From the NCBI GenBank assembly GCA_913058185.1, contig CAJXQX010000010.1, positions 1 through 64,000 of the forward strand: 64,000 nt of DNA, read 5' to 3'. Source of the DNA: an uncultured Verrucomicrobiota bacterium (GTDB taxonomy: Bacteria > Verrucomicrobiota > Verrucomicrobiia > Opitutales > Opitutaceae). This document shows positions 30,354 through 64,000 of the stretch, piece by piece (the stretch's first letter is position 1; every line of letters begins with the position of its first letter). Both the position numbers and the translations under genes were made by a program. Under the pieces are notes generated by a model. That model did not search any database and was not told the origin of the DNA. It worked only from the letters and a program-made list of their open reading frames with translations.

Positions 30354-30380
30354 GGGAATGACGGAAAACCAAGTGGGACC

Positions 30381-43878: not shown

Positions 43879-43966
43879 GATTTGAGAAATTTCGGATTTA
43901 CGAATTACGATTTCGGATTGGGTGGATTGAACTGATTCGGAAATCGGGATCACTTAGGCTAGGTGA

Positions 43967-45595: not shown

Positions 45596-45657
45596 GGCGG
45601 AATTTACGAATTACAATTTACGAAGTTGGATTTGTTGAGAGGCAGAGACCCGGGTTG

Positions 45658-45757
45658 AAAGAACGAGAACGAGGAGAGAGGGGCTGTAGCCGGTCGTGCC
45701 AGTCTTCTTGTTACTTGATACTTGGAACTTCGTATCAGCCCGTTCCGGGCTGATACG
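45658..45757. repeat. Composite 3'-flank: GAACGAG repeat, CTTGTTACTTGATAC repeat and hairpin
   Basis: A GAACGAGAACGAG string (45658-45680) is followed by CTTGTTACTTGATACTTGG (from 45707). GTATCAGCCCG/CGGGCTGATAC then form a perfect 11-bp hairpin at 45733-45757 around a three-base loop. The rhaB stop codon (45735-45737) lies inside the hairpin stem, which may terminate or protect the rhaB mRNA. Confidence 0.65.
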
Positions 45758-47180
45758 TTTTGGATTTCAGTTGTTTCGTGAGATGGCGGCGAAATTCGGG
45801 GAGGTCTTTTACGGCTTTCAGGGCGATGAGTTGATTCGCCATGTTACCAACCGCGGACCCTTCGAGTTGGCAGGATAGCACGGGAAGTCCGGCGGCATTA
45901 GCAGTGGCTTGGCAGAGCAAGGCGTTTTGGGCGCCACCGCCCACCATGATGATGCGTTTGAAGGTGCGGCCCGAGAGCTTGGTCAGGTTTGCGATCACAT
46001 CGGCATGGCCTTGGCCGAGTGAATCACAGATCAACCGGGTGTAGGCTGCCAGATCACGCGGCAGTTTGAGTCGACGGCGTTTGAGTTGCTGGTCGATCGC
46101 CCGGCGCATGGAGGTCGGGTTGCCGAAAGCGGAATCGGTGACGTCGAGCAGATGTTCGGAGGCGGGAAGGGCACGGGCGGCGTTGATGAGTTTGGTCCAC
46201 TCGGCTGCCTTTTGCGGGCGAGCTTTGAATTCTTTCAGCGTCTCTTCGAGCAACCAAAGACCGATCACGTTGACGAGCGGGCGGTAGTCACCACGACCGG
46301 TTTGGTCGTTGGCCACGCGGGCGGCGATGGCACCGTCGTTGAGCAGGGGACGGTCGTTTTCCATGCCGACGAGTGACCAGGTGCCTGAGCTGAGCAAGAT
46401 GTCGGTGCCGTCGGCCGCGGCTGGAATCGCATCATAGGCACAGGTCGTATCGTGTCCGGGGACGGCGATGACCCGCGTGCGTTTTAGCGCCGGCATATCA
46501 CGAACGCGGCCCAGGCCGGTGCCGCTGGTCAGCGGTGGGGTGAACCATCCGGCGGGCACGCCAAAGTGTTTCAGGGTTGAGCGAGACCAACCTCCCGTTT
46601 TCACGTTTAGTAATTGGGCGGTGCCGGCGATCGATTGCCCGTTGGTCATTTTCCCACTCAGCAGGAAATTAAAATAGTCGGGGAGAAACAGGCAGCGTTT
46701 GGCGATGGTCGTGATGGCGGGATGCGTCGCGACGGTTTCGGCCAGTTGGAGGGAACTGTTCAGGAATATCGCCGGGATGCCGGTCGCGCGATAGATCTTA
46801 CGGAGTATTTTGGGATCGGCGACTAGGGAGCTCAGTCCGGCCTGCGTGCGGTCATCGCGGTAGGCGTGGGTCGGGTAGACGGCGCGGCCTGTTTGGTCTA
46901 CGAGCACGTAATCCACGCCCCAGGTATCAACCCCCACGCTGGCTAGAATATCGCCCTCGGGTAGGCTTTTGGCCGCGAGATCGAGACCTTGCTGGACCTG
47001 TTCCCAAAGTCCGGCGATATCCCAATAGGCGTTGTCTCCGACTTGACGGACCGCGTTGGGGAAGCGGTGGACCTCCTTGAGCTCGAGTCGATGGTGGGAC
47101 CACGTGCCAACCATGACGCGACCGGAAGTCGCGCCGAGGTCGACGGCAGCACAGTGAACAGAAGTTGATTTGCGGGGCAT
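45735..47180 (-). CDS. rhaB: Rhamnulokinase
   Basis: A 481-residue FGGY-family sugar kinase phosphorylating L-rhamnulose at C1. AVDLGATSGRVMVG is the N-terminal phosphate motif, VGVDTWGVDYVLVDQ carries the catalytic Asp region, AVPGHDTTCAYDAIPA is typical of rhamnulokinases, and MVGGGAQNALLCQATANA is the adenosine motif. The stop lies within a hairpin. Upstream is an AT-rich 112-base spacer that probably contains its promoter. Confidence 0.94.
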   Translation of the reverse strand: MPRKSTSVHCAAVDLGATSGRVMVGTWSHHRLELKEVHRFPNAVRQVGDNAYWDIAGLWEQVQQGLDLAAKSLPEGDILASVGVDTWGVDYVLVDQTGRAVYPTHAYRDDRTQAGLSSLVADPKILRKIYRATGIPAIFLNSSLQLAETVATHPAITTIAKRCLFLPDYFNFLLSGKMTNGQSIAGTAQLLNVKTGGWSRSTLKHFGVPAGWFTPPLTSGTGLGRVRDMPALKRTRVIAVPGHDTTCAYDAIPAAADGTDILLSSGTWSLVGMENDRPLLNDGAIAARVANDQTGRGDYRPLVNVIGLWLLEETLKEFKARPQKAAEWTKLINAARALPASEHLLDVTDSAFGNPTSMRRAIDQQLKRRRLKLPRDLAAYTRLICDSLGQGHADVIANLTKLSGRTFKRIIMVGGGAQNALLCQATANAAGLPVLSCQLEGSAVGNMANQLIALKAVKDLPEFRRHLTKQLKSKTYQPGTG

Positions 47181-49911: not shown

Positions 49912-52230
49912 CTAGGAATGCGGAGCGACTGTGATTACGATGGATTTTGACGTCGGGGTGCGGCTGATGTTGGCCGTGGCGTGGATGGGCACGAGCACGT
50001 TGGCCTCGGGGTAATAGGCTGCGGCACAACCTTTCGGGGTGTCGTAAGGGATCACGAGGAACAAGTCCGCGGTGCGCGTTTCTCCGTGGAAGTGGCTGGT
50101 GATGTCGACCGGTTGTTCATCCTTCAGTCCGCGATCAGTCATGTCTTCGCGGTTCATGAAAATCACGCGGCGCTCATTGGTGATACCGCGGTAACGGTCG
50201 TTGTTGCCGTAGATCGTGGTGTTGAACTGGTCGTGGCTGCGAAAGGTTTGGAGTAGCATCTGACCAGACTCGAGCACGAGCGGGTTCAGCGCGTTGCTGG
50301 TGAATTCGGCTTTGCCGGTCTCGGTCGCCCATCGGCGTTCCTTTACGCCATTGGGCAGGTAGAAACCGCCGGGCTGGTGAATGCGCACGTTAAATTTTTC
50401 GAAGCCTGGCAACACGCGTTCGATCCGTTCGCGGATGAGACTGTAGTCTTGAGCGAACTCGAGCCACGGGGCGGTGGAGCGTTTGCCGAGAGCGACGTGG
50501 GCAACGCCGCAAACGATGGCGACTTCGCTGCGTAAATCGGGTGAGGCGGGAGTGAGCTTACCTTCGGAGCTGTGCACCACGCCCATCGAGTTTTCGACGG
50601 TGACAAATTGAGCACGGTCGTTTTTCAGGTCACGTTCGGTGCGCCCTAAACAAGGGAGGATGAGGGCCCGACGTCCCGTCACGAGATGGCCTCGGTTAAG
50701 TTTGGTTGAGACCTGCACCGTCAATGCGCATTTGCGCAACGCGGCCGCCGTAAAATGAGTGTCGGGCGAGGCGGACAAGAAATTGCCTCCCAGGGCAAAA
50801 AACACCCGAGCCTTGTTCTCGTGCATCGCTTCGATCGCTTCAACCGTGTCGTAGCCGTCAGCCCGCGGCGCCGTGAAGGCGAATTCGGCCTCGAGCTGAT
50901 CGAGGAAAGCAGGGGGCGGGCGTTCCCAAATCCCCATGGTGCGGTCGCCTTGCACATTGCTGTGCCCCCGCACGGGACACAGTCCGCTGCCAGGTCGCCC
51001 GAGCTTGCCGGTGATCAAATGCAGGTTCACGAGTTCGCGGATGGTCTCCACCGAGTTGTGATGTTGGGTGAGGCCCATGGCCCAACAGGTGATGCACTCC
51101 TTTGCCGAAATAAATACGTCTGCGGCGGCGCGAATCTTTGCTTCGGTGAGTCCTGATTGGCTGGTGAGATCGGACCACGCTACTTGATCTAAATCGGTGA
51201 CCATCTGCTCGAATCCGATGGTGTGTTCGGCAATGAAGGTCTGATCGACCACCGTGCCAGGCTTCGCGGCCTCAGCCTCCAAAACACACTTCAGCATTCC
51301 TTTAACAAAAGGCAGATCCCCGTTGAGTCGGACCGGCACATGCAGCGACTGCAGGGGAGTCGCTTTGCCGATGATCCCCGAAATTTTCTGGGGATGAGCA
51401 AACGCCTTGAGCCCGGTTTCGAGTAAGGGGTTTACGGATACGATACGTCCACCGTTGAGCACGGTCTGCTCCATTGAGGTGAGCATGCGGGGATGATTGG
51501 TGCCCGGGTTTTGACCGATGACCATGAGGCAATCGGTGTGCTCGATCTCTTCCAAGGTCACGGTGCCTTTGCCGATACCGATGGTCTGCTTTAGCGCTGA
51601 GCCACTCGACTCGTGGCACATGTTGGAACAGTCGGGCAGGTTGTTGGTGCCGAACTGGCGCACGAAAAGTTGGTAGAGGAAGGCGGCTTCGTTGCTCGCC
51701 CGACCGGACGTGTAGAAGATGGCTTCGTGTGGAGTGGAGCAGGCGTTGAGGTCCTCGGCCACGAGTTTGAACGCTTCGTCCCAACCGATGGGGCGGTAGT
51801 GGGAGGCATCGGCATCCAATACCATAGGTTCAGTGAGGCGACCTGCGTCGTTGAGGTCGAAGTCGGTAAAGTCCGCCAATTCCTGAATGGAGTGTCGGGC
51901 AAAGAACTCCCGGTCGGCGCGTTTCTTGGTGATTTCAGTGGCGATGGCCTTGGCGCCATTTTCGCAAAATTCGAAACTCGATCGTTTGCCATCGGGATCG
52001 GGCCAGGCGCAGCTGGGGCAATCGAAGCCACCTTTTTGGTTAGCCCGCAATAGAGCAGATGTGCCACGCGCCAGTCCTGCCTGAGCTTGGATGTGCTTCA
52101 TCGAGCTCAGCACGGCAGTCGTCCCGACCGCGGTCTCGGACGGAGCCCCGCGTTTCAACTTGCCCAGGCGCCGAGGCGGCTCGGCGTCGGGGAGTAGCTG
52201 GGTAGTAGGATCGGGATTCTCAGCGGACAT
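49912..52230 (-). CDS. FdhF/YdeP-family molybdopterin oxidoreductase
   Basis: A 772-residue cytosolic molybdopterin oxidoreductase of the FdhA-like/YdeP family. Near the N-terminus, GGFDCPSCAWPDPDG (Cys71, Cys74) with Cys89 is an incomplete version of the four-cysteine iron-sulfur site, typical for this family. Cys205 in SNMCHESSGSAL is the probable molybdenum ligand in place of selenocysteine. QNPGTNHPRM, GRPGSGLCPVRGHSNVQGD and the C-terminal molybdopterin dinucleotide domain are present. The physiological reaction is unproven; formate oxidation is possible. mobA and fdhD in the same window would supply and sulfurate its cofactor. Confidence 0.9.
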   Translation of the reverse strand: MSAENPDPTTQLLPDAEPPRRLGKLKRGAPSETAVGTTAVLSSMKHIQAQAGLARGTSALLRANQKGGFDCPSCAWPDPDGKRSSFEFCENGAKAIATEITKKRADREFFARHSIQELADFTDFDLNDAGRLTEPMVLDADASHYRPIGWDEAFKLVAEDLNACSTPHEAIFYTSGRASNEAAFLYQLFVRQFGTNNLPDCSNMCHESSGSALKQTIGIGKGTVTLEEIEHTDCLMVIGQNPGTNHPRMLTSMEQTVLNGGRIVSVNPLLETGLKAFAHPQKISGIIGKATPLQSLHVPVRLNGDLPFVKGMLKCVLEAEAAKPGTVVDQTFIAEHTIGFEQMVTDLDQVAWSDLTSQSGLTEAKIRAAADVFISAKECITCWAMGLTQHHNSVETIRELVNLHLITGKLGRPGSGLCPVRGHSNVQGDRTMGIWERPPPAFLDQLEAEFAFTAPRADGYDTVEAIEAMHENKARVFFALGGNFLSASPDTHFTAAALRKCALTVQVSTKLNRGHLVTGRRALILPCLGRTERDLKNDRAQFVTVENSMGVVHSSEGKLTPASPDLRSEVAIVCGVAHVALGKRSTAPWLEFAQDYSLIRERIERVLPGFEKFNVRIHQPGGFYLPNGVKERRWATETGKAEFTSNALNPLVLESGQMLLQTFRSHDQFNTTIYGNNDRYRGITNERRVIFMNREDMTDRGLKDEQPVDITSHFHGETRTADLFLVIPYDTPKGCAAAYYPEANVLVPIHATANISRTPTSKSIVITVAPHS

Positions 52231-52242
52231 GAGGCAGAATGG

Positions 52243-52413
52243 TTTTTAACCACAGATTACACGGATTAACACAGATCAGGATGAGTAGAGTAAAGCACTC
52301 AGCTGGATTGAGATCAGTGTCTATCAGTGGTTGAAGAATAGCCTCCAGCTAGACTTGGGGCAGTGTGGAGTCGGAACTAAATCTGAGTATATCTGTGCAA
52401 TCTTTGGTTTAAA
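52243..52413. repeat. AACCACAGATTACACGG-type element with imperfect terminal repeats
   Basis: AACCACAGATTACACGGATT begins the left end (about 52248-52276). The right end (ATCTGTGCAATCTTTGGTTT, about 52391-52410) is its imperfect reverse complement. The interior (AGATCAGTGTCTATCAGTGG) is a related word. Elements of this style are widespread between genes of Verrucomicrobiota and other phyla. It separates the oxidoreductase from the TIM-barrel gene. Confidence 0.6.
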
Positions 52414-52423
52414 CAGCGCCCTA

Positions 52424-53269
52424 CTAGCTGGCGGCCAGGGCTTCGGCCCAGAGAATACGGAGGTCTTTCCCGAGTTCTTGGGCTTCATGCCAGCTGTCGG
52501 GGAAACAGCTTAAGCCGTAGCCGATTTTTGGGCCAACTTCAGGGCAGGCCCAGAACTCATTGCCGGGACGCGGTCCGGCCAACCATAGATCGAAGGCTTT
52601 GCGGATGAAGGGGCGGAGCTCCTCGTATTCCGGCGAGTGTTTCGTTGTGCCGTCGGTTACCGGAACCTGGCAATGGTGCCCGTTGAAGGGGCGCATGTGC
52701 CACAAGCGTGAAGCTTGGAACAACGGGATGTTCTCAAACAGGCGTTCGATGTAGTTCGATGGTCCCAGATGCTTCACCGAAGCGGGATGAGAGAAATCAA
52801 AATTCACCCGCGGGTATTTGCCGGTCTTGGCCTTCACCCCTTCAGCGATGCCGTAGGTTTTTTCGGGTGTCTCGGTGCAAGTGTCGCGGTGGACCTCGAG
52901 ATAAACTTCGGCACCTTGCTTCTCGGCTTCCGTCATCAGTCCTACCGTGAGTTCAACGGCATCTTCGATCGACGTGTCGTGATCGGCGAGCTGGCAGTTG
53001 ATGGGGCCTTGATCGAGGGAAAGCGCCTTGGTGATACGAGGCGCGAAGTGCGCCGTTTCGCCAGCGTCGAAGAATCCACCGTAGCGCAGCCCCGTTTTGG
53101 TCAGACCTTCAGCGAGACCAGGAGCATTGATTCCGGTGGTGCAGGCGTCGAATCCCGCGGCCTTGATGGCGTCAAGCTTTTGGCCGGTCGACCAATCGGT
53201 GCCGTCAGCGTTTTGTTGGTTGGTGAGACTCCAGAGGTTGGCTTGAAGGACGAGAGTGGGTTCGGACAT
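52424..53269 (-). CDS. TIM-barrel sugar isomerase/epimerase-like protein
   Basis: A 281-residue AP-endonuclease-2-like TIM barrel. GQKLDAIKAAGFDACTTGI starts the barrel. Likely metal ligands are in VYLEVHRDTCTE (Glu and His), NFDFSHPASVKH (Asp, His) and HMRPFNGHHCQVP. The C-terminus (GPRPGNEFWACPEVGPKIGY) supplies a late Glu. Substrate unknown. It is the last gene on the minus strand before the repeat element, 45 bases downstream of the corrinoid-cassette orphans, so it may be part of the same transcript. Confidence 0.82.
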   Translation of the reverse strand: MSEPTLVLQANLWSLTNQQNADGTDWSTGQKLDAIKAAGFDACTTGINAPGLAEGLTKTGLRYGGFFDAGETAHFAPRITKALSLDQGPINCQLADHDTSIEDAVELTVGLMTEAEKQGAEVYLEVHRDTCTETPEKTYGIAEGVKAKTGKYPRVNFDFSHPASVKHLGPSNYIERLFENIPLFQASRLWHMRPFNGHHCQVPVTDGTTKHSPEYEELRPFIRKAFDLWLAGPRPGNEFWACPEVGPKIGYGLSCFPDSWHEAQELGKDLRILWAEALAAS

Positions 53270-53314: not shown

Positions 53315-53662
53315 TTAACCAACGGATGCATATTCTAACCAGAATTTGTCGTCCTCCACGATCAGTTTTGCGGCAAAGTTGGCGTTGGCCTCTTCCAGCG
53401 CGGCTTTGAGCATATCCTTGGGGTCCGGGCCTTTTTCGATCCGGCGCAGCAGGCCTTCACCTTTTTCGGTGCCGAGGGCTAGGGTGATTTTGAGACCGCG
53501 GCGTTTGGCGGAGAATTTGGTGCCGTCGGGCAGCTCGATCTTCTTTCTGAGCGGCTTGAGGTAGGCGTCGGCGTAGTGGACGCCTACTCCGGAACGATCG
53601 TTCTTTTCGGGGCGCAGGGCTTCTTCGACGTCAGGATTGAGGGGGGCGAGTTCAGCTTTCAT
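53315..53662 (-). CDS. Unknown 115-residue protein of the corrinoid cassette
   Basis: A small, charged, cytosolic protein without cysteines or membrane segments. DRSGVGVHYADAYLKPLRKK and LKITLALGTEKGEGLLRRIE are its most distinctive parts. It sits eight bases after the Cys-rich orphan at 53671, in a tight same-strand series that begins with the corrinoid activator genes. No family is recognised. Confidence 0.68.
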   Translation of the reverse strand: MKAELAPLNPDVEEALRPEKNDRSGVGVHYADAYLKPLRKKIELPDGTKFSAKRRGLKITLALGTEKGEGLLRRIEKGPDPKDMLKAALEEANANFAAKLIVEDDKFWLEYASVG

Positions 53663-53670
53663 GAGATGAG

Positions 53671-54189
53671 TTATAATGGGTCGGCGTTTTTAGATAAAGC
53701 GAAGTGAAGGGTTTGGAGCACGGCGTTCCATTTGTGCATGCGGCCATCGACGTGGCACAGACAGCCGGACGCAGATTTAGCGGGATTCCAGGTGATCGCG
53801 GCAGCCAGAGGCCCTCCGGTCAGCGGAGCATCGTGCGACATCCAGTCCTTTACCATGGCGGAGCTCTCGCGCCAGCAACACATGCGGGTGTGGCCGTCGC
53901 CGTGTGGGGCTGGCTCGCAACGTTGTTCCAGAATTGGCCAGCCGACGTCGGCGGAACCGACTTTTACGTGATAAAGTAAATCGAACTCGATGTTGCCACA
54001 GGTGCTGCCGTGGAATCGGAATTCGACCAGACTGCTGCCGTCTTCGCCCTCGGCTTTGAGTTGCAGATTCTTTTTCGCCCAGCGATCGAGCACGCGCGGC
54101 GTGAAGGTGTAGGCAGGAGCATTCACGGTGGCTTGAGTTGTAGCTGGGCTCTCCCGCGGCTGCGGGACCGGTGCGTTGGAGGCGTTCAT
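53671..54189 (-). CDS. Unknown Cys/His-containing protein of the corrinoid cassette
   Basis: A 172-residue soluble protein with a Pro-rich N-terminus. Six cysteines (64, 91, 104, 105, 143, 145) and nearby histidines (96, 100, 146) cluster in GSTCGNIEF, RCEPAPHGDGHTRMCCWRES and SGCLCHVDGRMHKW, suggesting a metal or Fe-S site. Its start overlaps the end of the MetH-activation-like gene by four bases. It is not recognised as a known family, but its coupling to reactivation genes suggests a role in corrinoid redox or assembly. Confidence 0.7.
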   Translation of the reverse strand: MNASNAPVPQPRESPATTQATVNAPAYTFTPRVLDRWAKKNLQLKAEGEDGSSLVEFRFHGSTCGNIEFDLLYHVKVGSADVGWPILEQRCEPAPHGDGHTRMCCWRESSAMVKDWMSHDAPLTGGPLAAAITWNPAKSASGCLCHVDGRMHKWNAVLQTLHFALSKNADPL

Positions 54190-54740
54190 GTTTGCGGGAG
54201 TTCGAAGACGGCGATTTGAGACTTTTTAGGCGTTAACATGCCGGAGTCCAAGGATTCCAGAGGCCGGGGGAGTTCGACCGCGTTCTTAATGGCGGCGAGT
54301 AAAGGGATATTCTCGGCGATGCTCCAGTCCGGGTAGCCGGGGCAGTAGTGTTTTTTGGCTCCCAAACTGTCGCGAGTTTGGGTGAGCAACTCGTCGACGA
54401 CGGCCGACGCGAAACACTCGAGGAAATAGTAACGGTCGGGTTCGTCCTTTTCCCAATACGCGGCGGCCGCGAGCTCCGCCTCGGCTCCTGCGCTCGCGAT
54501 GATCACGCCAAGCCGGGGAGCCTTTGGCCAAATAGCCGCACAAAGTTGCTGAATGGTTTCGTCGGCTTCGATCGCGACTAACCAGGGGCGTCCGTTTTGA
54601 CTAAACCATTCCCTTGCCCAGGTGGCGTTCTCCGCCACCGCGCCTTCGAATTCGCGGGCCACCGGATAGCGAAGGAAGCGTTTGAATACGCGGTCGTCGA
54701 CGGTCACCTCGGGAGCCGGTTCAAAGCGGAGTGGATTCAA
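54186..54740 (-). CDS. Stand-alone MetH-activation-domain-like protein
   Basis: A 184-residue protein. HYCPGYPDWSIAENIPLL (residues 131-148) and LDSGMLTPKKSQIAVF (164-179) resemble the SAM-binding SPGYP...PxxxVSG signature of the activation domain of cobalamin-dependent methionine synthase. That domain brings SAM to Co(II)-corrinoid for reductive methylation. Here it is free-standing, as in some anaerobes, and is coupled by four-base overlaps to the RACo-like gene upstream and the Cys-rich orphan downstream. It may help reset the corrinoid protein at 60470-61114. Confidence 0.72.
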   Translation of the reverse strand: MNPLRFEPAPEVTVDDRVFKRFLRYPVAREFEGAVAENATWAREWFSQNGRPWLVAIEADETIQQLCAAIWPKAPRLGVIIASAGAEAELAAAAYWEKDEPDRYYFLECFASAVVDELLTQTRDSLGAKKHYCPGYPDWSIAENIPLLAAIKNAVELPRPLESLDSGMLTPKKSQIAVFELPQT

Positions 54741-56380
54741 TCGAGATCCCCCGGTTCAATGCCATAGGGTTGAAATTGACAGCCCTCCACGAAGTGATCG
54801 AAGAAGTTTGGATCGGTCTCGAGTTCGACATGTTGGATCGTTTTTATCCGTTCCTCCAATTCGCGCCGGCGCGTGACCGAGAGTAACGCCAGACAGGCAC
54901 CCTCAACGGCGGCGTTGCCGATTTGAACAATTTTCTCGGTCGGTAGATCCGGGATTAGGCCGATTCCCTTGGCGGCATCGATGTCCAGGTGGCGGCCGAA
55001 GCCTCCCGCGAGGTAGAACTTATCTACGTCGGCCAGACTGCGCCCGTAGGCCTGGGCCACGATCCGAATCCCGGCTACATTGGCCCCCTTGGCTTGAGCG
55101 AGTTCATTGATGTCGCTCTCGAGAAATTTGATCCCGTGCTCCTCATTCACCACGAAGGAAGATTCGCCGTCTTCGAAGCGACCGAACGCGTTCATCTGTT
55201 CGGTGCGTTTGAGTTCAGCCAGCAATGAAATAAGACCCGAACCGCAAATGCCCTCCGGTGCTTTGTCGCCGATGACGCTGATTTCCGACGGTCCCGAATC
55301 AGGCAGGTGCACCTTCTCGATCGCGCCATCGAGGCCCGGCATTCCTTGGCTGATGGCACGTCCTTCGAAGGCGGGGCCGGCCGGGCAGGAAGCCGCCAGT
55401 AGTTTATCTCGGTAGCCCATGAATACTTCGGTATTGGTGCCGATGTCCATGATCGCCACGAGCTCGTCGCTGCGATCAGCCGCGACGGCGAGTAAACAGG
55501 CGGCAGCGTCACCGCCGACGTGACCACTGATCACCGGCATAGCATAAAGCCGTGCTTCGGGGTGACAGGGCAGGCGAAGTTTGCGTGCCGGCATGCTGAT
55601 CGCAGTCGTATCGGCTTCGCCATCTCGCCAGGCTTTTTCCGAAAGGGAGCGGTAGGGACGTTGACCGATTGAACTCACATCGTAGCCCAGAAACAGGTCC
55701 CGCATGGTCGGGTTGCCGGCGACCACGATTTCAAAAATACACTCTGCCTCGAACGGCAGCTCTTTGATGGCCCGATTGAGGTAACCCAGCAGCGTGCGTT
55801 GCAGGAGACGTCCGGGATGATCGGTGTCGAATTGGATTCGCGACATCACATCGGTGCCGCCGAAACGTTGCGGGTTCTCCAGTGACGTGCTGGCTACGAT
55901 CTCACCGGATTCTAAATCGAGCGCTCGAACCACGACCGTGGTCGTGCCAATATCGATCGCCAAACCAATGATCGGACCGGTCGAAGTCGCGATCTGTTGG
56001 CCATCCAGCAATACCCGATCGCCATCTCGTGTGACCGCGGGGTCGATGGACTGCAGGGCTGCCTCTGGCGGCAAATTCATAGCCTGATCTTCAATGTGTA
56101 TCTCAGCCCGGCGCATCGTGTGGGCCTGCACTTCGCCCGGCACTTCCGTGAGTCGAGCGCAGCAGGATAAACGAAAGTTGTCCTTAAGGTGGCTCTCTTC
56201 CTCGGACGGCGGGGTGAGGCTGTCCATACCCTCCGTGATTTCCATTAAACACTCGCGGCACTTGCCTTGCTTACGACAGGAGGATGGAACGCTGACATCT
56301 AGACTTTCTCCGACCTCGAATAGAGAGGTGCCCGCGGCGAATTCGCCGGCGCGTTGATTGATGGTTACCTTTTTGGACAT
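54737..56380 (-). CDS. RACo/RamA-like reductive activator of corrinoid protein (DUF4445)
   Basis: A 547-residue protein with an N-terminal plant-type [2Fe-2S] ferredoxin domain: Cys35, Cys41, Cys44 and Cys73 or Cys74. An ASKHA-type ATPase domain follows, with phosphate motifs AIDIGTTTVVV (143-148) and IMDIGTNTEVF, GGDAAACLLA and FYLAGGFGRHLD. Such proteins use ATP to reduce inactive Co(II) corrinoid to Co(I). It is shorter than many RACo proteins (600 residues or more), with little linker between the two domains. It identifies the neighbouring methyltransferase system as truly corrinoid-dependent. Confidence 0.92.
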   Translation of the reverse strand: MSKKVTINQRAGEFAAGTSLFEVGESLDVSVPSSCRKQGKCRECLMEITEGMDSLTPPSEEESHLKDNFRLSCCARLTEVPGEVQAHTMRRAEIHIEDQAMNLPPEAALQSIDPAVTRDGDRVLLDGQQIATSTGPIIGLAIDIGTTTVVVRALDLESGEIVASTSLENPQRFGGTDVMSRIQFDTDHPGRLLQRTLLGYLNRAIKELPFEAECIFEIVVAGNPTMRDLFLGYDVSSIGQRPYRSLSEKAWRDGEADTTAISMPARKLRLPCHPEARLYAMPVISGHVGGDAAACLLAVAADRSDELVAIMDIGTNTEVFMGYRDKLLAASCPAGPAFEGRAISQGMPGLDGAIEKVHLPDSGPSEISVIGDKAPEGICGSGLISLLAELKRTEQMNAFGRFEDGESSFVVNEEHGIKFLESDINELAQAKGANVAGIRIVAQAYGRSLADVDKFYLAGGFGRHLDIDAAKGIGLIPDLPTEKIVQIGNAAVEGACLALLSVTRRRELEERIKTIQHVELETDPNFFDHFVEGCQFQPYGIEPGDLD

Positions 56381-56390
56381 GAGGGGATTT

Positions 56391-57692
56391 TTAGAGTCCG
56401 CCTTGCGTTTCGTTGTCGCCTTGGGCGGTCACGTGGCGGTCGAACACCACAACCTTGTCACCCCGCAATCGACTGACGTCGCTGAGCACATCTTGATCGG
56501 TGAGTAGGAATCGAGACTTAGCTCCCGGACTGAGCACGCCGAACTTCTCGGCATAATCCATCCGTTCTACGCCGGCGCCAGTCGCGGTGTGCAGGACCTG
56601 CGGAGCGCTCAGGCCAGCGGCCTGCATGAGTTCGAGTTCGCGTAAGAACCCCCAACCGTGCGTCACGCCGTGGGAACCGGAATCACTACCTGCGATGATA
56701 CGAACGCCCAGCTCCTGGGCGAGCACGAGGCTGCGGGCATGGCCGTCGATAATACGGCGCAAGTGATCGCATACTTCGTTGCTCCAACCGATAATTTCGG
56801 GATGGTCCAACTGGAATTGAACCGGAGCGAACGTCGGCACCCAGACCATATCCAAGTCACGGATACGAGCTAGCTGCTGATCGTCGATGAAAAAGCCGTG
56901 CTCGATGGTATCAACCTGAGCCTCGATGCAGTTGGCCACGCCATCGTTGCCCGAGCAATGAACCATGGTGTGTTTGCCGTGTTCGCGTGATGCGGTGACA
57001 AAGGCAATCAACTCCTCAGCGGGCATCTGCGGCTTCGCGGTGACGGCGCCTTTTTCGAAATTGATGATGCCGGTGGCAAGCAGCTTGATGCGGTGAGCCC
57101 CATCGTTGATCCGGGCGGCTACCGTCGCGGCGGGGGAATCGAATTCCTCCATCGGGCGAGCCATGAACGACCCGTAACGTTTTTGGTGATTGATGGCGGC
57201 ACCCGGAGCATCGACGTAGGGCATGATGCCGCGGCGGTCGGACCGGTAGCGCGATTGCAGGGCGAGACCGATAGCGGCTTTATCGCCAGCTTCGCGCACG
57301 GCGGTGATACCGAGTGCGACCAAGCGTTCGAGACGTGACTCGGCCGCGGCGAGTTGTTCCTCGGCGCTGAGTTTTAGGTGGGCCGAGCGTTTTGCGGTAT
57401 CGGTTTCACCGCCCTCTAGAAATAGATGGGTGTGGGAATCAGTTAGGCCCGGTAATGCCGTGTGGTCTGGGAGGTGCAGGTCGGGCTGGGTTTGACCAAG
57501 CCGGATGAGGTTGGCGGGCGGCGCATCGGTCGAAGCGTAGCGAATACCGTCCGCATCGCAGACCAAATGCGCATCGGTCAGCACCGAGCTGCTGGTGCCA
57601 TCAAACAAGCGGCCGACGCGCAACCAGCATGGTCCAACGATGTCGCGCAGGGTGTCAGCCAGCGCGGTTAAACTGGGACTCGAGTCGCTCAT
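56391..57692 (-). CDS. Amidohydrolase superfamily protein
   Basis: A 433-residue metal-dependent hydrolase of the imidazolonepropionase/prolidase-like group. LPGLTDSHTHLFLEGG holds the HxH motif, MVHCSGNDG and TIEHGF the two later histidines, and AGSDSGSHG the catalytic Asp. A short N-terminal beta domain precedes the barrel. The gene overlaps the pterin methyltransferase by four bases (57689-57692). It may release the methylated substrate from a conjugate or process the demethylated product. Aerobic chloromethane clusters also carry a HutI-like amidohydrolase of unclear role. Confidence 0.88.
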   Translation of the reverse strand: MSDSSPSLTALADTLRDIVGPCWLRVGRLFDGTSSSVLTDAHLVCDADGIRYASTDAPPANLIRLGQTQPDLHLPDHTALPGLTDSHTHLFLEGGETDTAKRSAHLKLSAEEQLAAAESRLERLVALGITAVREAGDKAAIGLALQSRYRSDRRGIMPYVDAPGAAINHQKRYGSFMARPMEEFDSPAATVAARINDGAHRIKLLATGIINFEKGAVTAKPQMPAEELIAFVTASREHGKHTMVHCSGNDGVANCIEAQVDTIEHGFFIDDQQLARIRDLDMVWVPTFAPVQFQLDHPEIIGWSNEVCDHLRRIIDGHARSLVLAQELGVRIIAGSDSGSHGVTHGWGFLRELELMQAAGLSAPQVLHTATGAGVERMDYAEKFGVLSPGAKSRFLLTDQDVLSDVSRLRGDKVVVFDRHVTAQGDNETQGGL

Positions 57693-58660
57693 TCTTCGAT
57701 GTAGTCAGCGCAGAGATCCATGATCTTTTCCGCTTGGCGGAAGCCGGCGTCTTCGGCGGTTTCATCGGGCAGAGCACGACCCTCTTCCAAGGCTGCTTCC
57801 AGTTCTGTGATCAGAGGATGATCGGCTTCGAGTGGGGTGGCGTTGACCTCAACATTGGCGAGGGCGTAGTCGAGACCGAGACGACCTGCGATCGTAAGGT
57901 AAGCCCGCTCCAGTAATGGTTTCGCGGCCTTGGGTGTTCCCCAGGCGAAGTTGGAAAGTCCGACGGAATAGTGGAGTCCCTTGAGGTCGGGATCGGCAGA
58001 ACAAAGACGCAAGGTATCCAAGCCGATGTTGACCAACCCGTAGGTGTCCGCGCCGACGGGGGCGAGGCCGGGATCGACGATGATGTCGTCGATCGTGCGG
58101 TTAGCTTTGGTCACCAGTAGGTCGACGAAGTGTTTGACCGTTTCGTAGCTCTGTTGCGGATCGAGGCTTTGGCCGGTGCTACCATCTGGGCGAAAACACT
58201 CGGAGGCCATGACGATGCAGCGCATGTCGTGTTCGCCGATCATCTCGATCATTTCGTCGAGATCCTCGCGGGACGCCGCGAGGGAATTGAAGAGTGGTTT
58301 GCCGCGGCTCTTGCTGCGGTCGAACGCTTCCAGCGCAACGCGATGATAGGCGATATTGGGATTGTCAAAGCTCAGCGAAATATCGGTCGCCTCTTGAATG
58401 GCGGGGATCACTATGGGCAGGAACTCGAGCATTTCCTCGACTCGCACGGCGACCTTTTGAGTGCCGTCAATATTGAGATTCACCAAGTCGGCGCCGGCAT
58501 CGGACTGGAGCTTGGCAAGATGCTGGAAGCCGGTGACGTCACGCGCTTCCCAGGCGCGACGAGCGCGGCCATAGGCGTTGTTGATGAGCTCGCCAATGAT
58601 CTTGGGTTGAGGGGGGAGAGCCCCGTCGGTAGGCGCGGGTGTGGAGGGGGAGGTGTTCAT
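57689..58660 (-). CDS. Pterin-binding methyltransferase (methylcorrinoid:tetrahydrofolate type)
   Basis: A 323-residue DHPS-like TIM barrel of the AcsE/MtgA/CmuB kind, which transfers methyl between a corrinoid protein and tetrahydrofolate. Signatures: IIGELINNAYGR, the pterin-pocket strands GADLVNLNIDG and ISLSFDNPN, IIVDPGLAPVGAD and HYSVGLSNFAWGTPKAAK. It lacks the other MetH domains. It overlaps the amidohydrolase and would give methyl-THF for the MetF-like enzyme encoded upstream. Confidence 0.88.
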   Translation of the reverse strand: MNTSPSTPAPTDGALPPQPKIIGELINNAYGRARRAWEARDVTGFQHLAKLQSDAGADLVNLNIDGTQKVAVRVEEMLEFLPIVIPAIQEATDISLSFDNPNIAYHRVALEAFDRSKSRGKPLFNSLAASREDLDEMIEMIGEHDMRCIVMASECFRPDGSTGQSLDPQQSYETVKHFVDLLVTKANRTIDDIIVDPGLAPVGADTYGLVNIGLDTLRLCSADPDLKGLHYSVGLSNFAWGTPKAAKPLLERAYLTIAGRLGLDYALANVEVNATPLEADHPLITELEAALEEGRALPDETAEDAGFRQAEKIMDLCADYIEE

Positions 58661-58720
58661 TAGATTGGAAAGGGGAGAAAGTGTTTGTCTGAGAAGGGTG
58701 CGGAGCGGTGGGGTCAGCGG

Positions 58721-58837
58721 AGAGAACGAGAACGAGAAAGATTAAGAGAACGAAAACGAGTGGAGCGGGCGTTAGAGCCAGACGTGGTTGGTCGGGATAA
58801 GTTTCTTGTTACTTAAGCGTTAGTATTTTGTTATTTC
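58721..58837. repeat. GAACGAG and CTTGTTACTT repeats between cassette genes
   Basis: AGAGAACGAGAACGAGAAAG (from 58721) continues with AAGAGAACGAAAACGAG to 58760. A degenerate CTTGTTACTT...TTGTTATTTCG string lies at 58804-58837, next to the metF-like stop codon. Same pairing of repeat families as beside rhaB. Confidence 0.55.
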
Positions 58838-60435
58838 GTGCCTGCGGCCCGACCGCGCCCGGTTACCGGAATTGGGGTGTCGGGGGTGGCGACTTTGATT
58901 GGGTTCGATAGGTGATCACGGCCGGCCCAGGCGTTGGCCCAGCTGGAGGTGCCGCGGAGTTGTTGGTCCTGCATGACGGGAGCGTGATCGAGTAGTTGGG
59001 CAGCGTTACCGGCGTGTTTGGCGCGATCATAGGCGCGGGACCAGATGCACTCGAAATCATCGACTTCGCATAGGCCATCGCGGGTACCGCCGCAGGGGCC
59101 GTTACGTTGATTTTTGGCGCAGGCGGATTCGGGACAGAGAAATTCGATATCAGGCAGGGAGCAGTCGCCGCAGTCTTTGCAGCCAAACATGGCGGCTTTG
59201 CTGGCATGTTCGATGGTGCGCATCCAGCCGGGGCCTTGCATGGGGTCCTTGGCACGGGTGGTGAGTTTCTTGCCGGTGTTCCATATCCCTTTGTCCTCTT
59301 CGAACATCAAACCGTGGATGAACTTGGAGAACCGATAACTGTAAGTGATATTGCCGGTCACGGGGCCGACGGCGGCGAGATCGAAAAGCGGGCGTTCGGG
59401 ATCGGCCAGTCCGGTGGTCGCATCCGATTCGTAACAGAAATATTCGTTCGGGCGACTGAACTGAATTTCGCGGGCAAACTTCTTCCAGTCTTCCGGGCCA
59501 AAGGAGCGTTCGATTTCCAGCACCCGTTCGACATCTTCGATCCGGTGCACGCCACCGAGGTAAGATCCCCGGTAACCGAGGCCCCGAAAGATTGCGATTT
59601 GTTTGGCGGCGAGTTCGAGGAAGAACGCTTTCCCGCGATCAGGCATGGCGTTCTGTTCTTCGCAGATCGCTGACAGCTCATCCGAGATTACGACTCCCGG
59701 AATTTTGTGCGATCGAAAGAGTTTTGCGACGCGGGGATTGAGCACGTAAACGTTGCCGATGAGAGGAATATCGCTCCAACCACGCTGACGGAGCCATACG
59801 ATGAGTTCGTGAATTTTGCGCGAATCGTAGCCGATTTGATTCACGATCCAGCGCGCGCCGCATTCGAGTTTCTTCTCTAGCTTCAAGAGCTGGGGAATGA
59901 CTTCGTTTTCGTGAAGTTTGAAATTGGTGACGACGCAGCCGGTATTAAATTGGGTAGCCCCGAGACGGGCATTTTTCTTTGCTCCGGGCCGCGTGACATC
60001 CATGCCGCTATTCATCTGGGCGAGTAGGGTGAGCAACCCGACCGAATCGATATCGAAGACGGGTTTGGCCCCACCGTGAACCCCTCGGCCGGAATAGTCA
60101 CCGGAGAGGGCGAGTAGGTTGTGCAGTCCGAGGCTGGCGAGATGCCAAGCTTCGGATTCGAGTGCGTTGCGATTGAAATCCTTGCAGGAGAGATGCACGA
60201 CGACTTCGCGTCCTGCCGTTCGAATCAGTTCGCCTAGGGCGGCCGGAGCGAGTTGTGGATTGCCACTGGCGTTGTCGGTGATGGAGACCCAATCAACGTC
60301 GTCGTGGGCCGCCAGAGCCTCGGCAAAAGCCACGGATTTGGAGGCCCGGGTTTCGAATATGGTGCCGCGCGTGGACACAAGTTCCACGCCGAGCAGGAAA
60401 CGCTGCGGATCAGCCAATTTCTCGGGCAACGTCAT
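58831..60435 (-). CDS. Methylenetetrahydrofolate reductase fused to a C-terminal MetV-like Cys-rich domain
   Basis: A 534-residue protein. The MetF barrel (about 1-310) shows GVELVSTRG with Glu18 as the probable catalytic acid, SITDNASGNPQ, HLSCKDFNRN, LLALSGDYSG and WIVNQIGYD. The C-terminal domain (about 400-475) carries eight cysteines (419, 422, 425, 434, 439, 448, 456, 463; CKDCGDCSLPDIEFLCPESA and NGPCGGTRDGLCEV), the MTHFR_C pattern seen in acetogen MetV. In this cassette it probably oxidises methyl-THF to methylene-THF. The start MTLPEKLADP is preferred over one nine codons upstream. Confidence 0.9.
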   Translation of the reverse strand: MTLPEKLADPQRFLLGVELVSTRGTIFETRASKSVAFAEALAAHDDVDWVSITDNASGNPQLAPAALGELIRTAGREVVVHLSCKDFNRNALESEAWHLASLGLHNLLALSGDYSGRGVHGGAKPVFDIDSVGLLTLLAQMNSGMDVTRPGAKKNARLGATQFNTGCVVTNFKLHENEVIPQLLKLEKKLECGARWIVNQIGYDSRKIHELIVWLRQRGWSDIPLIGNVYVLNPRVAKLFRSHKIPGVVISDELSAICEEQNAMPDRGKAFFLELAAKQIAIFRGLGYRGSYLGGVHRIEDVERVLEIERSFGPEDWKKFAREIQFSRPNEYFCYESDATTGLADPERPLFDLAAVGPVTGNITYSYRFSKFIHGLMFEEDKGIWNTGKKLTTRAKDPMQGPGWMRTIEHASKAAMFGCKDCGDCSLPDIEFLCPESACAKNQRNGPCGGTRDGLCEVDDFECIWSRAYDRAKHAGNAAQLLDHAPVMQDQQLRGTSSWANAWAGRDHLSNPIKVATPDTPIPVTGRGRAAGTK

Positions 60436-60469
60436 GGTCAAAAAGCGAGAAATTGGAGGCACAAACCGC

Positions 60470-61114
60470 TTAGGCGGCCGCTACCATTTCCAAAAACAAC
60501 TCGACGCTCGAAGGCGCGTCGGCGCCGTAGCCATCGGCTTCGATTTCGTCGGCGAACATACGATTCACCGGCGCGCCACCCACGGCGATTTTGACGTGAG
60601 TCAGATCCTCTTCTTCACGGAAGGCATCTATCACCTTTTTCATGTAAGGCATCGTGGTGGTGAGCAGAGCGGACATGCCGACGATGTTCGCGTTATGCTC
60701 GCGACAGGTGGCCATGTAAGCTTCGACGGGTTGGTCCACGCCGATATCGATTATCTGAAATCCGGCTCCCTCAGCCATCATGCATACGAGATTTTTACCG
60801 ATGTCATGGAGGTCACCTTTAACGGTGCCCATGACGACGGTACCCCGCGGTGGGTTGTTCTCAGCGTCGGCCACGAGGAGTGGTTTGAGCACGGACAGGC
60901 CGGCTTTCATAGCCCGGGCGGCTACGAGCACTTCGGGGACGTAGAGGATGTTGTATTTGAAGTCTTCACCCACGACAGACATGCCGGCGATGAGGCCTTC
61001 GTTGAGGACCACGTCCACTCGATTTCCTTCGTCGACGGCTTCTTGGACGAGGCGTTGGACTTCTTTGGCTTTACCCTCGTAGAGGAGTTGATTGATGAGA
61101 GCGTAGTCGGACAT
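60470..61114 (-). CDS. Corrinoid (B12-binding) methyl carrier protein
   Basis: A 214-residue stand-alone corrinoid protein of the MtaC/MtbC/MttC type. An N-terminal helical cap domain (ALINQLLYEGKAKEVQRLVQ; ILYVPEVLVAARAMKAG) is followed by the B12-binding Rossmann fold with GDLHDIGKN (His103 as lower axial cobalt ligand), MVGMSALLTTTM-like NIVGMSALLTTTMPYMK and VKIAVGGAPVN. It accepts methyl from the UroD-family enzyme upstream and passes it to the pterin methyltransferase. No B12 riboswitch was noticed nearby. Confidence 0.95.
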   Translation of the reverse strand: MSDYALINQLLYEGKAKEVQRLVQEAVDEGNRVDVVLNEGLIAGMSVVGEDFKYNILYVPEVLVAARAMKAGLSVLKPLLVADAENNPPRGTVVMGTVKGDLHDIGKNLVCMMAEGAGFQIIDIGVDQPVEAYMATCREHNANIVGMSALLTTTMPYMKKVIDAFREEEDLTHVKIAVGGAPVNRMFADEIEADGYGADAPSSVELFLEMVAAA

Positions 61115-61140
61115 GGGAGAGTTTTTGGAGGGGGGGGGAG

Positions 61141-62205
61141 TTAGAAAGAGGCGCTGTCGATGCAGGCTTGTTTGATAGCAATAAGGTTGGCGGTCGGTGA
61201 ACCGAACGGAACGACGGCGGTGCCGAGGATGTACCCGGGGATGCCCTTGCCGCGGGCAATTTCGCGGGCGGCGACTTCGTAGACCTCTTCCGGGGTGCCG
61301 GTTTCGATCAGGCGTGGGGAGATATTACGGCGGAAGGAACGGCCATGCTCCTGGCAAACTTCGGCCCATTCGTCGAAGTCGGAGGTGAAGTCGCAGAGCA
61401 GGTTATTCGCGCCGGACTCGGCTAGCAGTTCGGCGATCGGGGTGGTGTTGCCGCCGATGATGAGTGGCAGGTCGCGCACGCCCTGTTCGGCGCACCACTT
61501 CACGAGATCCTGGGTGATGGGGAGGACGAACTCCTCAAACATGTTGGGCGAAAGCAGTTCTGGAGAAGCCTGCGAATCGAAGACGACGAGGTCGGCTCCG
61601 GCGTCGATGTAAGCCTTGGAAAATTCCTTGATGATGCGTCCCGAGTATTCGAGCACCTCTTGAACCCAGTCGGGTTCGTCGAGGCAGGCCAAAAATAGGT
61701 CTTCGGCGCCGACGAGTGAGATCGCGAGAGAGAAGGGGCCGGAGATCGAGCCGCGGATCCAGTAGTCGTCACCCAGCTCGCGGCGGATGTTGGCCGTGGC
61801 AGTGATGTTGACCGGCATGCGGCCATCAGTGAGCGGATTGGGCAGGGGAGCGTTGGTTAGATCGTCGCCCACCTTGATCACGTGGTTACCGGGTTTAATA
61901 CCGGGAATAGACGTATCATCGCCTTCGTAAAAGGAGACTTTGCAGCCTACGGTCTCAGCCTCGAGGTTGTAGACGTCGACACCCACGGCGAGAGCATCGG
62001 GGCCAACGGCCTCGTATTCGGCCAGCAGCGCTCGGGTGAGCAGATCGGCGTCACGAGAGATCGCGGAAGGGGTGCTGCCAATGAAGGCGGCTTTGTGCTC
62101 GTAGATAGCCGGGAGAAAGAGTGGGACCGGGCGCGCATTGGGGATGCAACGCAGGACTGATTCAACCTCGGTGCGAGTCGCGGTGGGATGGGGAGGAGTT
62201 GGCAT
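61141..62205 (-). CDS. UroD-family corrinoid methyltransferase (methyl-donor specific)
   Basis: A 354-residue protein of the uroporphyrinogen decarboxylase superfamily, closest in style to MtaA/MtbA/CmuA-type methyltransferases. VDVYNLEAETVGCKVSF, DYWIRGSISGPFSLA, DLVVFDSQASPELLSP and ISPRLIETGTPEEVYE support this rather than haem synthesis. At the position where MtaA-type enzymes have a His-x-Cys zinc site, it reads LIIGGNTTP (251-254 GGNT); only Cys271 of a possible ligand set is obvious. The methyl donor is therefore unknown. It is the first gene of the cassette and divergent from the AraC regulator. Confidence 0.88.
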   Translation of the reverse strand: MPTPPHPTATRTEVESVLRCIPNARPVPLFLPAIYEHKAAFIGSTPSAISRDADLLTRALLAEYEAVGPDALAVGVDVYNLEAETVGCKVSFYEGDDTSIPGIKPGNHVIKVGDDLTNAPLPNPLTDGRMPVNITATANIRRELGDDYWIRGSISGPFSLAISLVGAEDLFLACLDEPDWVQEVLEYSGRIIKEFSKAYIDAGADLVVFDSQASPELLSPNMFEEFVLPITQDLVKWCAEQGVRDLPLIIGGNTTPIAELLAESGANNLLCDFTSDFDEWAEVCQEHGRSFRRNISPRLIETGTPEEVYEVAAREIARGKGIPGYILGTAVVPFGSPTANLIAIKQACIDSASF

Positions 62206-62312
62206 GGCAAATGGGAAGTGATGTAGCCTACGTTAATGTGACGCGATTGTCTTGGCGGATGGAGCTTGCAAGGGTTGGCATATCGGGCAATCAGGTAGAT
62301 CTGCAGTCACTC
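62206..62312. promoter_or_regulatory. Divergent promoter region of corrinoid cassette and AraC regulator
   Basis: This roughly 107-base gap between the UroD-family start and the AraC start (if 62313 is right) must hold promoters for both directions. No convincing -35/-10 pair, direct repeat or B12-box could be identified by eye. Confidence 0.4.
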
Positions 62313-63146
62313 ATGCGCGTTTCTCGTCCCATCACCGTTGAATTACCCACCCACGGGGTATTATTCGCCGAGAGCTCTCACTCCGGGGAGTTTCAAATGG
62401 AGCCACGGCAGGACGCCTATCACAAGCTGGTCTATGTCTTGACTGGTGAGGTGGCGTATCGGGAAATTAAGTCCAACGAGACCTCGGTGGCTAAGGCGGG
62501 CTCTTTGTTGGTCGTGCCCGGTGGTATTGCCCATCAAATAATCGATCACGAAACTTCGACCCTGCTGTTACTGTGCTTTCGCGAGGAGTATCCACAGAGC
62601 GAGGATGATCTCGCGCAATTGTGGCATAGCTTGATTCGGGTGCCTAATCGCACGGTGCGACTATCGCGTCCGGCTCAGCAAAGGCTCGAGAGTATGTGGC
62701 GCCGAGCCATGTTTGAATGGGAGCACGCCAGGGTTGGCGGTGCGACGGCGGTGCGGGCCATGGCGGCCCAAACCATGGTTTTACTATCCCGGCTGTCGGT
62801 TGAGAGTGGAGGCGTTTTGGCTCTCTCTCGCGTGCAAGCGGTGAAGGAGGAGATCGAGGAAACATTTTACGATGAGTGGGATCTGGACCGGGCGGCAGGG
62901 CGAGCGGGGTTGTCGCGGCGGCGGTTCACCGAGCTATTTCGGGAAACCACGGGCGAGACCTTTGGGGTGTTTTTAGCCGAGCTTCGACTTCAGCATGCCG
63001 CGAAGTTGTTGCGCGCAGGTGAGCACTCGGTAACGGGAGTGATGTTTGCGAGTGGCTTTAATGATGTGTCGCATTTCTATCGGCGCTTCCGCCAAAAGTT
63101 TGGTCAGCCGCCGCGGGCGTGGTCGGTCGACGTTTCCCGAACTTAG
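62313..63146 (+). CDS. AraC-family transcriptional regulator
   Basis: A 277-residue regulator. The N-terminal cupin-like sensing domain (about 8-105; LVYVLTGEVAYREIKSNET, GSLLVVPGGIAHQI) is followed by a C-terminal AraC DNA-binding domain with two helix-turn-helix motifs (DLDRAAGRAGLSRRRFTELF and GVMFASGFNDVSHFYRRFRQ). The start MRVSRPITVEL is preferred because it leaves room for a divergent promoter. ATGs at 62259 and 62211 are possible. It probably senses the methylated substrate or a product and switches on the adjacent cassette. Confidence 0.88.
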   Translation: MRVSRPITVELPTHGVLFAESSHSGEFQMEPRQDAYHKLVYVLTGEVAYREIKSNETSVAKAGSLLVVPGGIAHQIIDHETSTLLLLCFREEYPQSEDDLAQLWHSLIRVPNRTVRLSRPAQQRLESMWRRAMFEWEHARVGGATAVRAMAAQTMVLLSRLSVESGGVLALSRVQAVKEEIEETFYDEWDLDRAAGRAGLSRRRFTELFRETTGETFGVFLAELRLQHAAKLLRAGEHSVTGVMFASGFNDVSHFYRRFRQKFGQPPRAWSVDVSRT

Positions 63147-63173: not shown

Positions 63174-64000
63174 ATGCTTGAAGACCTTTTACAGATTGAT
63201 GACTTGGAACCGCCGATGGGCGATTTAGCTATCGGGCATCAGCTCGATACAGGACGCGGCGTTTGGACCGGACGGGTAGCGGGCGAGCGTGATCTGCCTG
63301 CGAGACGGATCATCCACCAACGGGTGTTGCGACTGCACGGCCCGGCGCGATTGAAAAAACTGGGGGTCCGGCCGGCTCTCGGATTTCACAAATGTGCCAG
63401 CTCGGGTGATCGAGACTGGGTGGTGGACTCTCGGGTTCGGGCGCGGATCAAGGGGAAATGGCAGGAGGTGTTTAAGCAGGTGGGATTGAAGAAACCGCGC
63501 TCCGCGGAGTTTCGCTGGTTCGCCCTACCGAACAACCTGATCGCCGATGCGGTGGTGATCGAGGTTCGCCGCAGTGGATTGGATGGCGCGTGGACTTCGT
63601 GGAACTTGGCGACCGGTGGATTTGCTTTAATGGGGGAACTGCTGACTCCGATCGGCCCCCGGCTCGAACGGCGTCTTGAGGTCGATAACATTGAGCTGAA
63701 CAAGCTCCCGGCCGGAGTTGCGGCCGAGCACCGCGACGGCACCGTGCGTTATACCGCGAGTGATTTTTCGGTGGGTTTCAGGCTCGATCGGCCGGGTTTT
63801 TCTTTTCTCGGTCTCGGGATCGAAGACGAGGCGGCGCTCAAAACGAATCTCCTGCTCAACAATCCAGTAAAATGCGACCAAGGTCCGCAGATCCATGCGG
63901 TCGGCGCGCCGCCGCGTTTGGCTCCTTCGATTCGCTGTGACCTTACCGGAACCGTGACGATCAAGGGTGGCGACGTGATCTATGATGTCACTTCGAGTGA
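63174..64000 (+). CDS. Unknown protein, open at the right edge
   Basis: An ATG at 63174 opens a frame with no stop before the window ends (275 codons visible). The start MLEDLLQIDDLEPPMGDLAI follows the AraC gene by 27 bases. Basic and aromatic patches (FRWFALPNNLIADAVVIEVR; TSWNLATGGFALMGELLTPI) suggest a soluble mixed alpha/beta or beta protein; there is no signal peptide or membrane helix. I do not recognise a family, and the missing C-terminus limits any call. Confidence 0.7.
   Translation, partial: MLEDLLQIDDLEPPMGDLAIGHQLDTGRGVWTGRVAGERDLPARRIIHQRVLRLHGPARLKKLGVRPALGFHKCASSGDRDWVVDSRVRARIKGKWQEVFKQVGLKKPRSAEFRWFALPNNLIADAVVIEVRRSGLDGAWTSWNLATGGFALMGELLTPIGPRLERRLEVDNIELNKLPAGVAAEHRDGTVRYTASDFSVGFRLDRPGFSFLGLGIEDEAALKTNLLLNNPVKCDQGPQIHAVGAPPRLAPSIRCDLTGTVTIKGGDVIYDVTSS

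Follow-up and report, generated by a model that had tools for sequence, protein, structure and literature searches.

A conserved corrinoid-dependent methyl-transfer cassette of Opitutaceae, predicted to act on O-methyl sugars

Which methylated compound feeds a corrinoid-dependent methyl-transfer cassette in an uncultured member of the Opitutaceae (Verrucomicrobiota)? The question arises from a 64,000-nt stretch of contig CAJXQX010000010.1 (assembly GCA_913058185.1; hereafter the window), in which positions 53315-63146 encode a UroD-superfamily methyltransferase (UroD-A) together with a corrinoid carrier, folate enzymes, a corrinoid activator, and a divergent regulator. Judged by protein families and gene context, the cassette is probably a module for corrinoid-dependent O-demethylation and one-carbon oxidation that is fed by methylated sugars. 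In this genome, the single module would serve two donor enzymes, UroD-A encoded in cis and a second UroD-type methyltransferase, c16, acting in trans from contig C59.

Open reading frames and Pfam and NCBIfam profile searches recovered all genes listed in the original prediction at the same coordinates, and revealed an amidohydrolase gene (56391-57692) and three short genes that it had overlooked. The cassette comprises the following features.

61141..62205, minus strand: UroD-A, UroD-superfamily methyltransferase, putative methyltransferase 1 (MT1; methyl donor to corrinoid), 354 aa; PF01208, 131.6 bits
60470..61114, minus strand: corrinoid carrier protein, 214 aa, GDLHDIG motif; B12-binding and B12-binding_2 domains
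58831..60462, minus strand: MetF fused to a MetV-type C-terminal domain, 543 aa; PF02219 and PF12225
57689..58660, minus strand: DHPS-like methylcorrinoid:tetrahydrofolate (THF) methyltransferase, putative methyltransferase 2 (MT2), 323 aa; PF00809 (Pterin_bind)
56391..57692, minus strand: amidohydrolase-superfamily hydrolase, 433 aa, member of the conserved core; PF01979, 70.6 bits
54737..56380, minus strand: RACo-type ATP-dependent corrinoid reductive activator, 547 aa; PF14574, PF17651, and PF00111
54186..54740, minus strand: p184, relative of the MetH activation domain and candidate second corrinoid reactivator; family profile against 1j6r
53671..54189, minus strand: p172, cysteine-rich, fused to p184 in relatives; no Pfam match
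53315..53662, minus strand: p115, conserved small protein; no Pfam match
62313 (or upstream)..63146, plus strand: divergent AraC-family regulator; HTH_18 and a cupin-type N-terminus

The nine minus-strand genes run from 62205 to 53315 in the order given, and the 4-base overlaps at three junctions (DHPS/amidohydrolase, RACo/p184, and p184/p172) fit a single operon. The AraC protein has a conserved start (MRVSRP), which corresponds to position 62313 and lies 107 bp away from the start of UroD-A. Of 33 loci, 27 have the regulator gene in divergent orientation, and contig ends cut off several of the remainder. The gene set of a corrinoid O-demethylase (MT1, corrinoid protein, MT2, and reductive activator) is adjacent in the window, and a single protein combines the MTHFR domain with PF12225, as expected of a MetF-MetV fusion. 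The top NCBIfam model of the corrinoid protein is of the MtgC type (183.9 bits, under its cut-off of 370), and the DHPS-like protein scores 89 bits, again under the cut-off, with the methyl-THF:corrinoid methyltransferase model NF005719.

When GTDB genomes were scanned with the UroD-A protein, 35 loci emerged; Verrucomicrobiota, mostly Opitutaceae, account for 32. Conservation was counted over the 23 loci, including one from genome G376, that extend at least 10 kb downstream of the UroD gene. All nine genes occur in identical order in 15 of these loci, and one further locus is missing the amidohydrolase alone. Such retention shows that the cassette is not a chance arrangement; the gene order, whose conservation in related genomes the original prediction had left to be checked, is kept across Opitutaceae, and the cassette is a real, conserved module of this family.

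The methyltransferase at the head of the cassette is not a true HemE, the other point on which the original prediction depended. UroD-A scores 121.9 bits with the mtaA_cmuA model TIGR01463 (curated cut-off, 235.4 bits) versus 39.6 bits with HemE, and a separate HemE gene (379 bits to PF01208) is located on contig C38 of the same genome (G000). At the positions of the MtaA zinc ligands (His-X-Cys...Cys), UroD-A has I, G, and T, and it therefore does not belong to the MtaA/MtbA coenzyme M thiol methyltransferases. UroD-A proteins share a conserved IGG(N/D)(T/A) motif, with GG(N/D) present in every UroD-A row of the alignment, and c16 has YHND at the zinc-ligand region of MtaA. A precedent for a metal-free UroD-type MT1 is provided by the haloalkane enzyme CdmB, in whose recently solved structure no metal was seen (PMC13222342). 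In the UroD protein tree, UroD-A and c16 each form one supported group, the deep branches being too weak and long to place either of them.

The mechanism suggested by these protein families is well supported at the family level. The UroD-type enzyme would demethylate an O-methyl sugar and load the methyl group onto the Co(I) form of the carrier protein, from which the DHPS-like protein would pass it to THF, and the MetF-MetV fusion would oxidize the resulting methyl-THF to methylene-THF. RACo, driven by ATP, and the p184/p172 pair, which resembles the MetH activation system, would return oxidized cobalt to Co(I). The original prediction had proposed the same route from donor to methylene-THF; its component families are borne out, and the route continues to be deduced from them.

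An indication of a donor comes from c16. The only corrinoid protein besides MetH and the only RACo of this genome are both encoded in the window. The genome thus has a single copy of the module, yet it possesses c16 as a second UroD-type methyltransferase (C59:11913-12959; 82% identical to the G091 query), and in the simplest reading the window-encoded carrier would serve c16 in trans. On C59, genes for UxuA (mannonate dehydratase) and a TonB-dependent receptor precede c16, an acetylxylan esterase gene follows it, and a glycoside hydrolase family 67 (GH67) alpha-glucuronidase gene lies approximately 9 kb away, followed by a transporter-like frame. Related genomes have c16 within the module itself: G275 and G099 contain the run GH115, UxuA, RACo, p184-p172, p115, c16, and corrinoid protein, the c16 modules of G099 and G091 additionally include MetF, DHPS, and amidohydrolase genes, and in G143 and G010 c16 is accompanied by GH115, UxuA, and RACo. 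Where the module is beside c16 (G272, G091, G099, and G010), UroD-A stands alone elsewhere. Four genomes have GH115 at a distance of 5 to 10 kb from c16, and GH67 is present in all seven genomes with a complete c16 and in none of the four other genomes tested (G060, G284, G376, and G080). The arrangement extends to a member of Gemmatimonadota, since the 1.1-Mb plasmid 1 of Gemmatirosa kalamazoonensis (L049) carries the genes for a short-chain dehydrogenase/reductase (SDR), UxuA, c16, corrinoid protein, RACo, p184-p172, homocysteine methyltransferase, and p115 in this order.

The (4-O-methyl)glucuronate side groups of xylan are set free by GH67 and GH115 enzymes, and UxuA is a part of glucuronate breakdown; we therefore read c16 as a putative 4-O-methylglucuronate demethylase. 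A sugar donor is likely for c16, the most likely one being the 4-O-methyl-D-glucuronate of xylan, which GH67 would set free in this genome. The suggestion of O-methyl sugars as donors, one option of the original prediction, gains support from the xylan/glucuronate locus of c16 and from its in-module relatives beside GH115 and UxuA; the donor of UroD-A itself is not fixed by them.

The Gemmatirosa cassette also bears on a different function, in which the genes would mainly supply methyl groups or act as a split methionine synthase, passing methyl-THF to an acceptor instead of oxidizing a donor. Its homocysteine S-methyltransferase gene (PF02574), a similar protein read by eye in G010, and the similarity of p184 to MetH activation proteins agree with such a function, and the aerobic MtgBCD system of Ruegeria combines methionine synthesis with demethylation (PMC12478193). 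We regard it as highly improbable, given that the window cassette contains no homocysteine methyltransferase, that a MetH-like long frame is present on C42 of this genome, and that the divergent AraC gene and the glycan neighbors fit an inducible catabolic operon.

For UroD-A, the neighboring genes include c12, c10, c49, GH51, PhyH, aldolase-like, SDR/epimerase, and VanA-type Rieske genes, the majority being glycan genes. These neighbors favor an O-methyl sugar, without pointing to a particular one, as its plausible donor. The putative (alpha/alpha)6 glycosidase gene c12 (807 aa; L062:11174-13597) starts in the window (63174..64000, plus strand) and extends beyond it, followed outside the window by c10, a weakly enolase-superfamily-like gene. 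The c12 model has low confidence (predicted local distance difference test, pLDDT, of 51) and its Foldseek matches are GH63/GH116/GH78-like, so that c12 may be called (alpha/alpha)6 glycosidase-like and nothing narrower. The recurrent neighbor c49, a 770-residue family, has no match in Pfam or the PDB.

LigM/DesA-like and VanA-type Rieske enzymes act elsewhere on methoxyaromatics, and relatives of UroD-A occur beside genes of either kind. UroD-MetF is followed by a LigM/DesA-like gene (c15; 567 of 800 bits for the DesA model and 525 of 580 bits for LigM, both under the equivalog cut-offs) in L029, L030, L032, L037, the shorter L027, and also in G060 and G284, and other relatives adjoin a VanA_C Rieske gene. 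The module might thus demethylate aromatics of the vanillate or syringate type, as do the MtvB, OdmB, and VdmB systems, and characterized UroD-superfamily O-demethylases of aromatics exist (PMC13222342). Such a role is unlikely, however: a profile search of this genome found neither intradiol (PF00775) nor LigB-type (PF02900) ring-cleavage genes, each of the two families was found in just one of eight UroD-A genomes, and the neighbor genes are mainly glycan-related, with c16 in a xylan/glucuronate context. Small donors, namely chloromethane, methanol, methylamines, or betaines, would agree with the activity of the UroD-superfamily members CmuA, MecE, MecC, and CdmB on haloalkanes (PMC13222342) and with MtgC and MtbC as the best models of the corrinoid protein. 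We consider them very unlikely, since the MtgC-type scores are far under the cut-offs, c16 is linked to UxuA, GH115, and GH67, and the conserved neighborhood showed no MttB-type, methanol, or amine transport gene.

Several observations weigh against the methylated-sugar reading. No neighbor gene fixes the donor of UroD-A, and some UroD-A loci have LigM/DesA-like or VanA-type Rieske genes instead. UroD-A and MetF of G060 and G284 occur without a close corrinoid module, and hence UroD-A may not always be a user of this module. In addition, the co-occurrence of GH67 and GH115 with c16 was seen in a small sample of related genomes.

The variant loci are diverse. L039 combines UroD-MetF with the amidohydrolase and p184, L028 has UroD by itself, and in L041 UroD-A is near a Rieske gene and the gene for a different corrinoid protein. 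In L092 (10560-11585), L093, and L041, UroD-A adjoins a VanA_C Rieske oxygenase gene, PhyH, an AraC gene, and c49. The LigM/DesA-like loci L027, L029, L030, L032, L037, L095, and L096 have FAH-family and gcvP genes nearby, and several of them are also near rhaK, mqo, and an OPT transporter gene, and are without a close corrinoid module. Relatives of rhaK and mqo are near UroD-A in several other genomes too, and the window itself contains mqo, a rhamnose-isomerase-like gene, and a rhamnulokinase gene (42382-47180; named by eye). L100 and L101 (G060:C4 and G284:C6) encode a second, different corrinoid system, which includes a RACo-like gene and a row of many divergent members of the UroD family. 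A distant UroD-A relative from a Spirochaetales metagenome-assembled genome (L046:9974-10969) is surrounded by branched-chain-amino-acid-type ABC transporter-like genes.

How would the carrier be kept active? RACo is complete, with the 2Fe-2S (Fer2), middle, and ASKHA C-terminal domains present. The p184 family profile matches 1j6r, the stand-alone methionine-synthase activation-type protein TM0269 of T. maritima (E-value 2.4e-7); single p184 members have no Pfam match, the link being seen by the family profile only, and the C-terminal part of E. coli MetH alone does not match the profile. By this profile comparison, p184 is a distant relative of the MetH activation-domain family (PF02965). 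An alignment of 21 proteins shows conservation of the p184 stretches SPGYxGW and SGMLxPKKS. In contrast to TM0269, p184 shares an operon with RACo and is fused in relatives to the cysteine-rich p172 domain, forming a single protein of approximately 400 residues in L054, L057, L058, L059, and L049 (Gemmatirosa). The likeness of p184 to the MetH activation domain and its fusion to p172 suggest that the module holds two candidate corrinoid reactivators, RACo and p184/p172. The AlphaFold model of p172 is of high confidence (pLDDT 88.9), and the fold search gave no clear match; fold comparison yielded VIA Z values of 6.9 for RnfG (108 residues, root-mean-square deviation (rmsd) 3.3) and 4.2-4.5 for IscU entries (93-97 residues, rmsd 3.5-4.2). 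An IscU/NifU-like identity of p172, suggested by cysteine spacing that is alike by eye, found no support from hhalign, which gave 0.3% for E. coli IscU, or from the fold search. The small protein p115 is conserved (mean column identity of 68% among 15 relatives) and has no match in Pfam or the PDB.

The amidohydrolase, in which the ligand pattern HxH, K, H, H, D is readable, has PDB relatives of the prolidase/imidazolonepropionase type. The UroD-A cassettes and the sugar-linked c16 cassettes alike keep its gene next to that of the DHPS-like protein, which makes a role in a donor pathway less likely. A role in folate metabolism, in which the enzyme would hydrolyze methenyl- or formyl-THF, is no more than a guess; a profile search of this genome gave no formate-THF ligase (PF01268).

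Two genes downstream of the cassette may extend it, one encoding an FdhF/YdeP-type molybdo-oxidoreductase (49912-52230, minus strand; TIGR01701, 910 bits) and the other, between it and the cassette, being sugar-isomerase-like (52424-53269, minus strand). The pair (49912..53269) is a possible extension that is retained only in L015 and L016, the two nearest relatives. Elsewhere in the window, three large tandem genes (28461-34584; 630, 631, and 677 aa) resemble one another over long C-terminal stretches and have the appearance of recent paralogs.

Among known systems, the Cmu chloromethane pathway of aerobic methylotrophs combines a UroD-type MT1, corrinoid, transfer to THF, and MetF, with CmuA being an MT1 fused to a corrinoid domain. 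The window encodes MT1 and corrinoid protein separately and shows no link to halomethanes. UroD-superfamily MT1s are documented for methoxyaromatics and haloalkanes, and many clades are uncharacterized (PMC13222342). The MtvB, OdmB, VdmB, and CdmB systems of acetogens contain the same enzyme types (UroD-superfamily MT1, corrinoid protein, DHPS-like MT2, and activator) with the same predicted chemistry (PMC13222342), whereas the window cassette belongs to another lineage, adds the MetF-MetV fusion, amidohydrolase, p184/p172/p115, and AraC control, and is tied to xylan/glucuronate genes rather than to aromatics or haloalkanes. Glycine betaine is an established substrate of corrinoid demethylation in aerobes (PMC12478193), and the responsible MtgBCD system of aerobic marine bacteria shares with the window the corrinoid protein, THF methyltransferase, and MetF (PMC12478193). 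The comparable S. meliloti pSymB cluster shares these and, like the window, also has a MetV-type protein and an ASKHA/RACo activator. In both of the latter systems, MT1 is of the MttB type rather than the UroD type, MetF and MetV are separate genes, and DUF1638 and 'virulence factor' genes are found in place of p184/p172/p115.

The route via corrinoid has been described for amines, aromatics, and halomethanes, and we found no description for sugars: a search of the open-access literature, which leaves most subscription journals and preprints uncovered, returned no paper on corrinoid demethylation of sugars or 4-O-methylglucuronate. We give about even chances to a broader proposal, according to which Opitutaceae and at least one member of Gemmatimonadota demethylate the 4-O-methyl-D-glucuronate of xylan as well as a further O-methyl sugar by means of a shared plug-in corrinoid module, with varied UroD-type enzymes, one carrier, and RACo and MetH-activation-like proteins as reactivators. 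Xylan of hardwoods and grasses commonly carries 4-O-methylglucuronate as a side group. The conserved operon and its defined list of proteins would make the demethylation step testable and would link B12 to the turnover of plant polysaccharides in soils and waters; they also contribute a possible second type of corrinoid reactivator.

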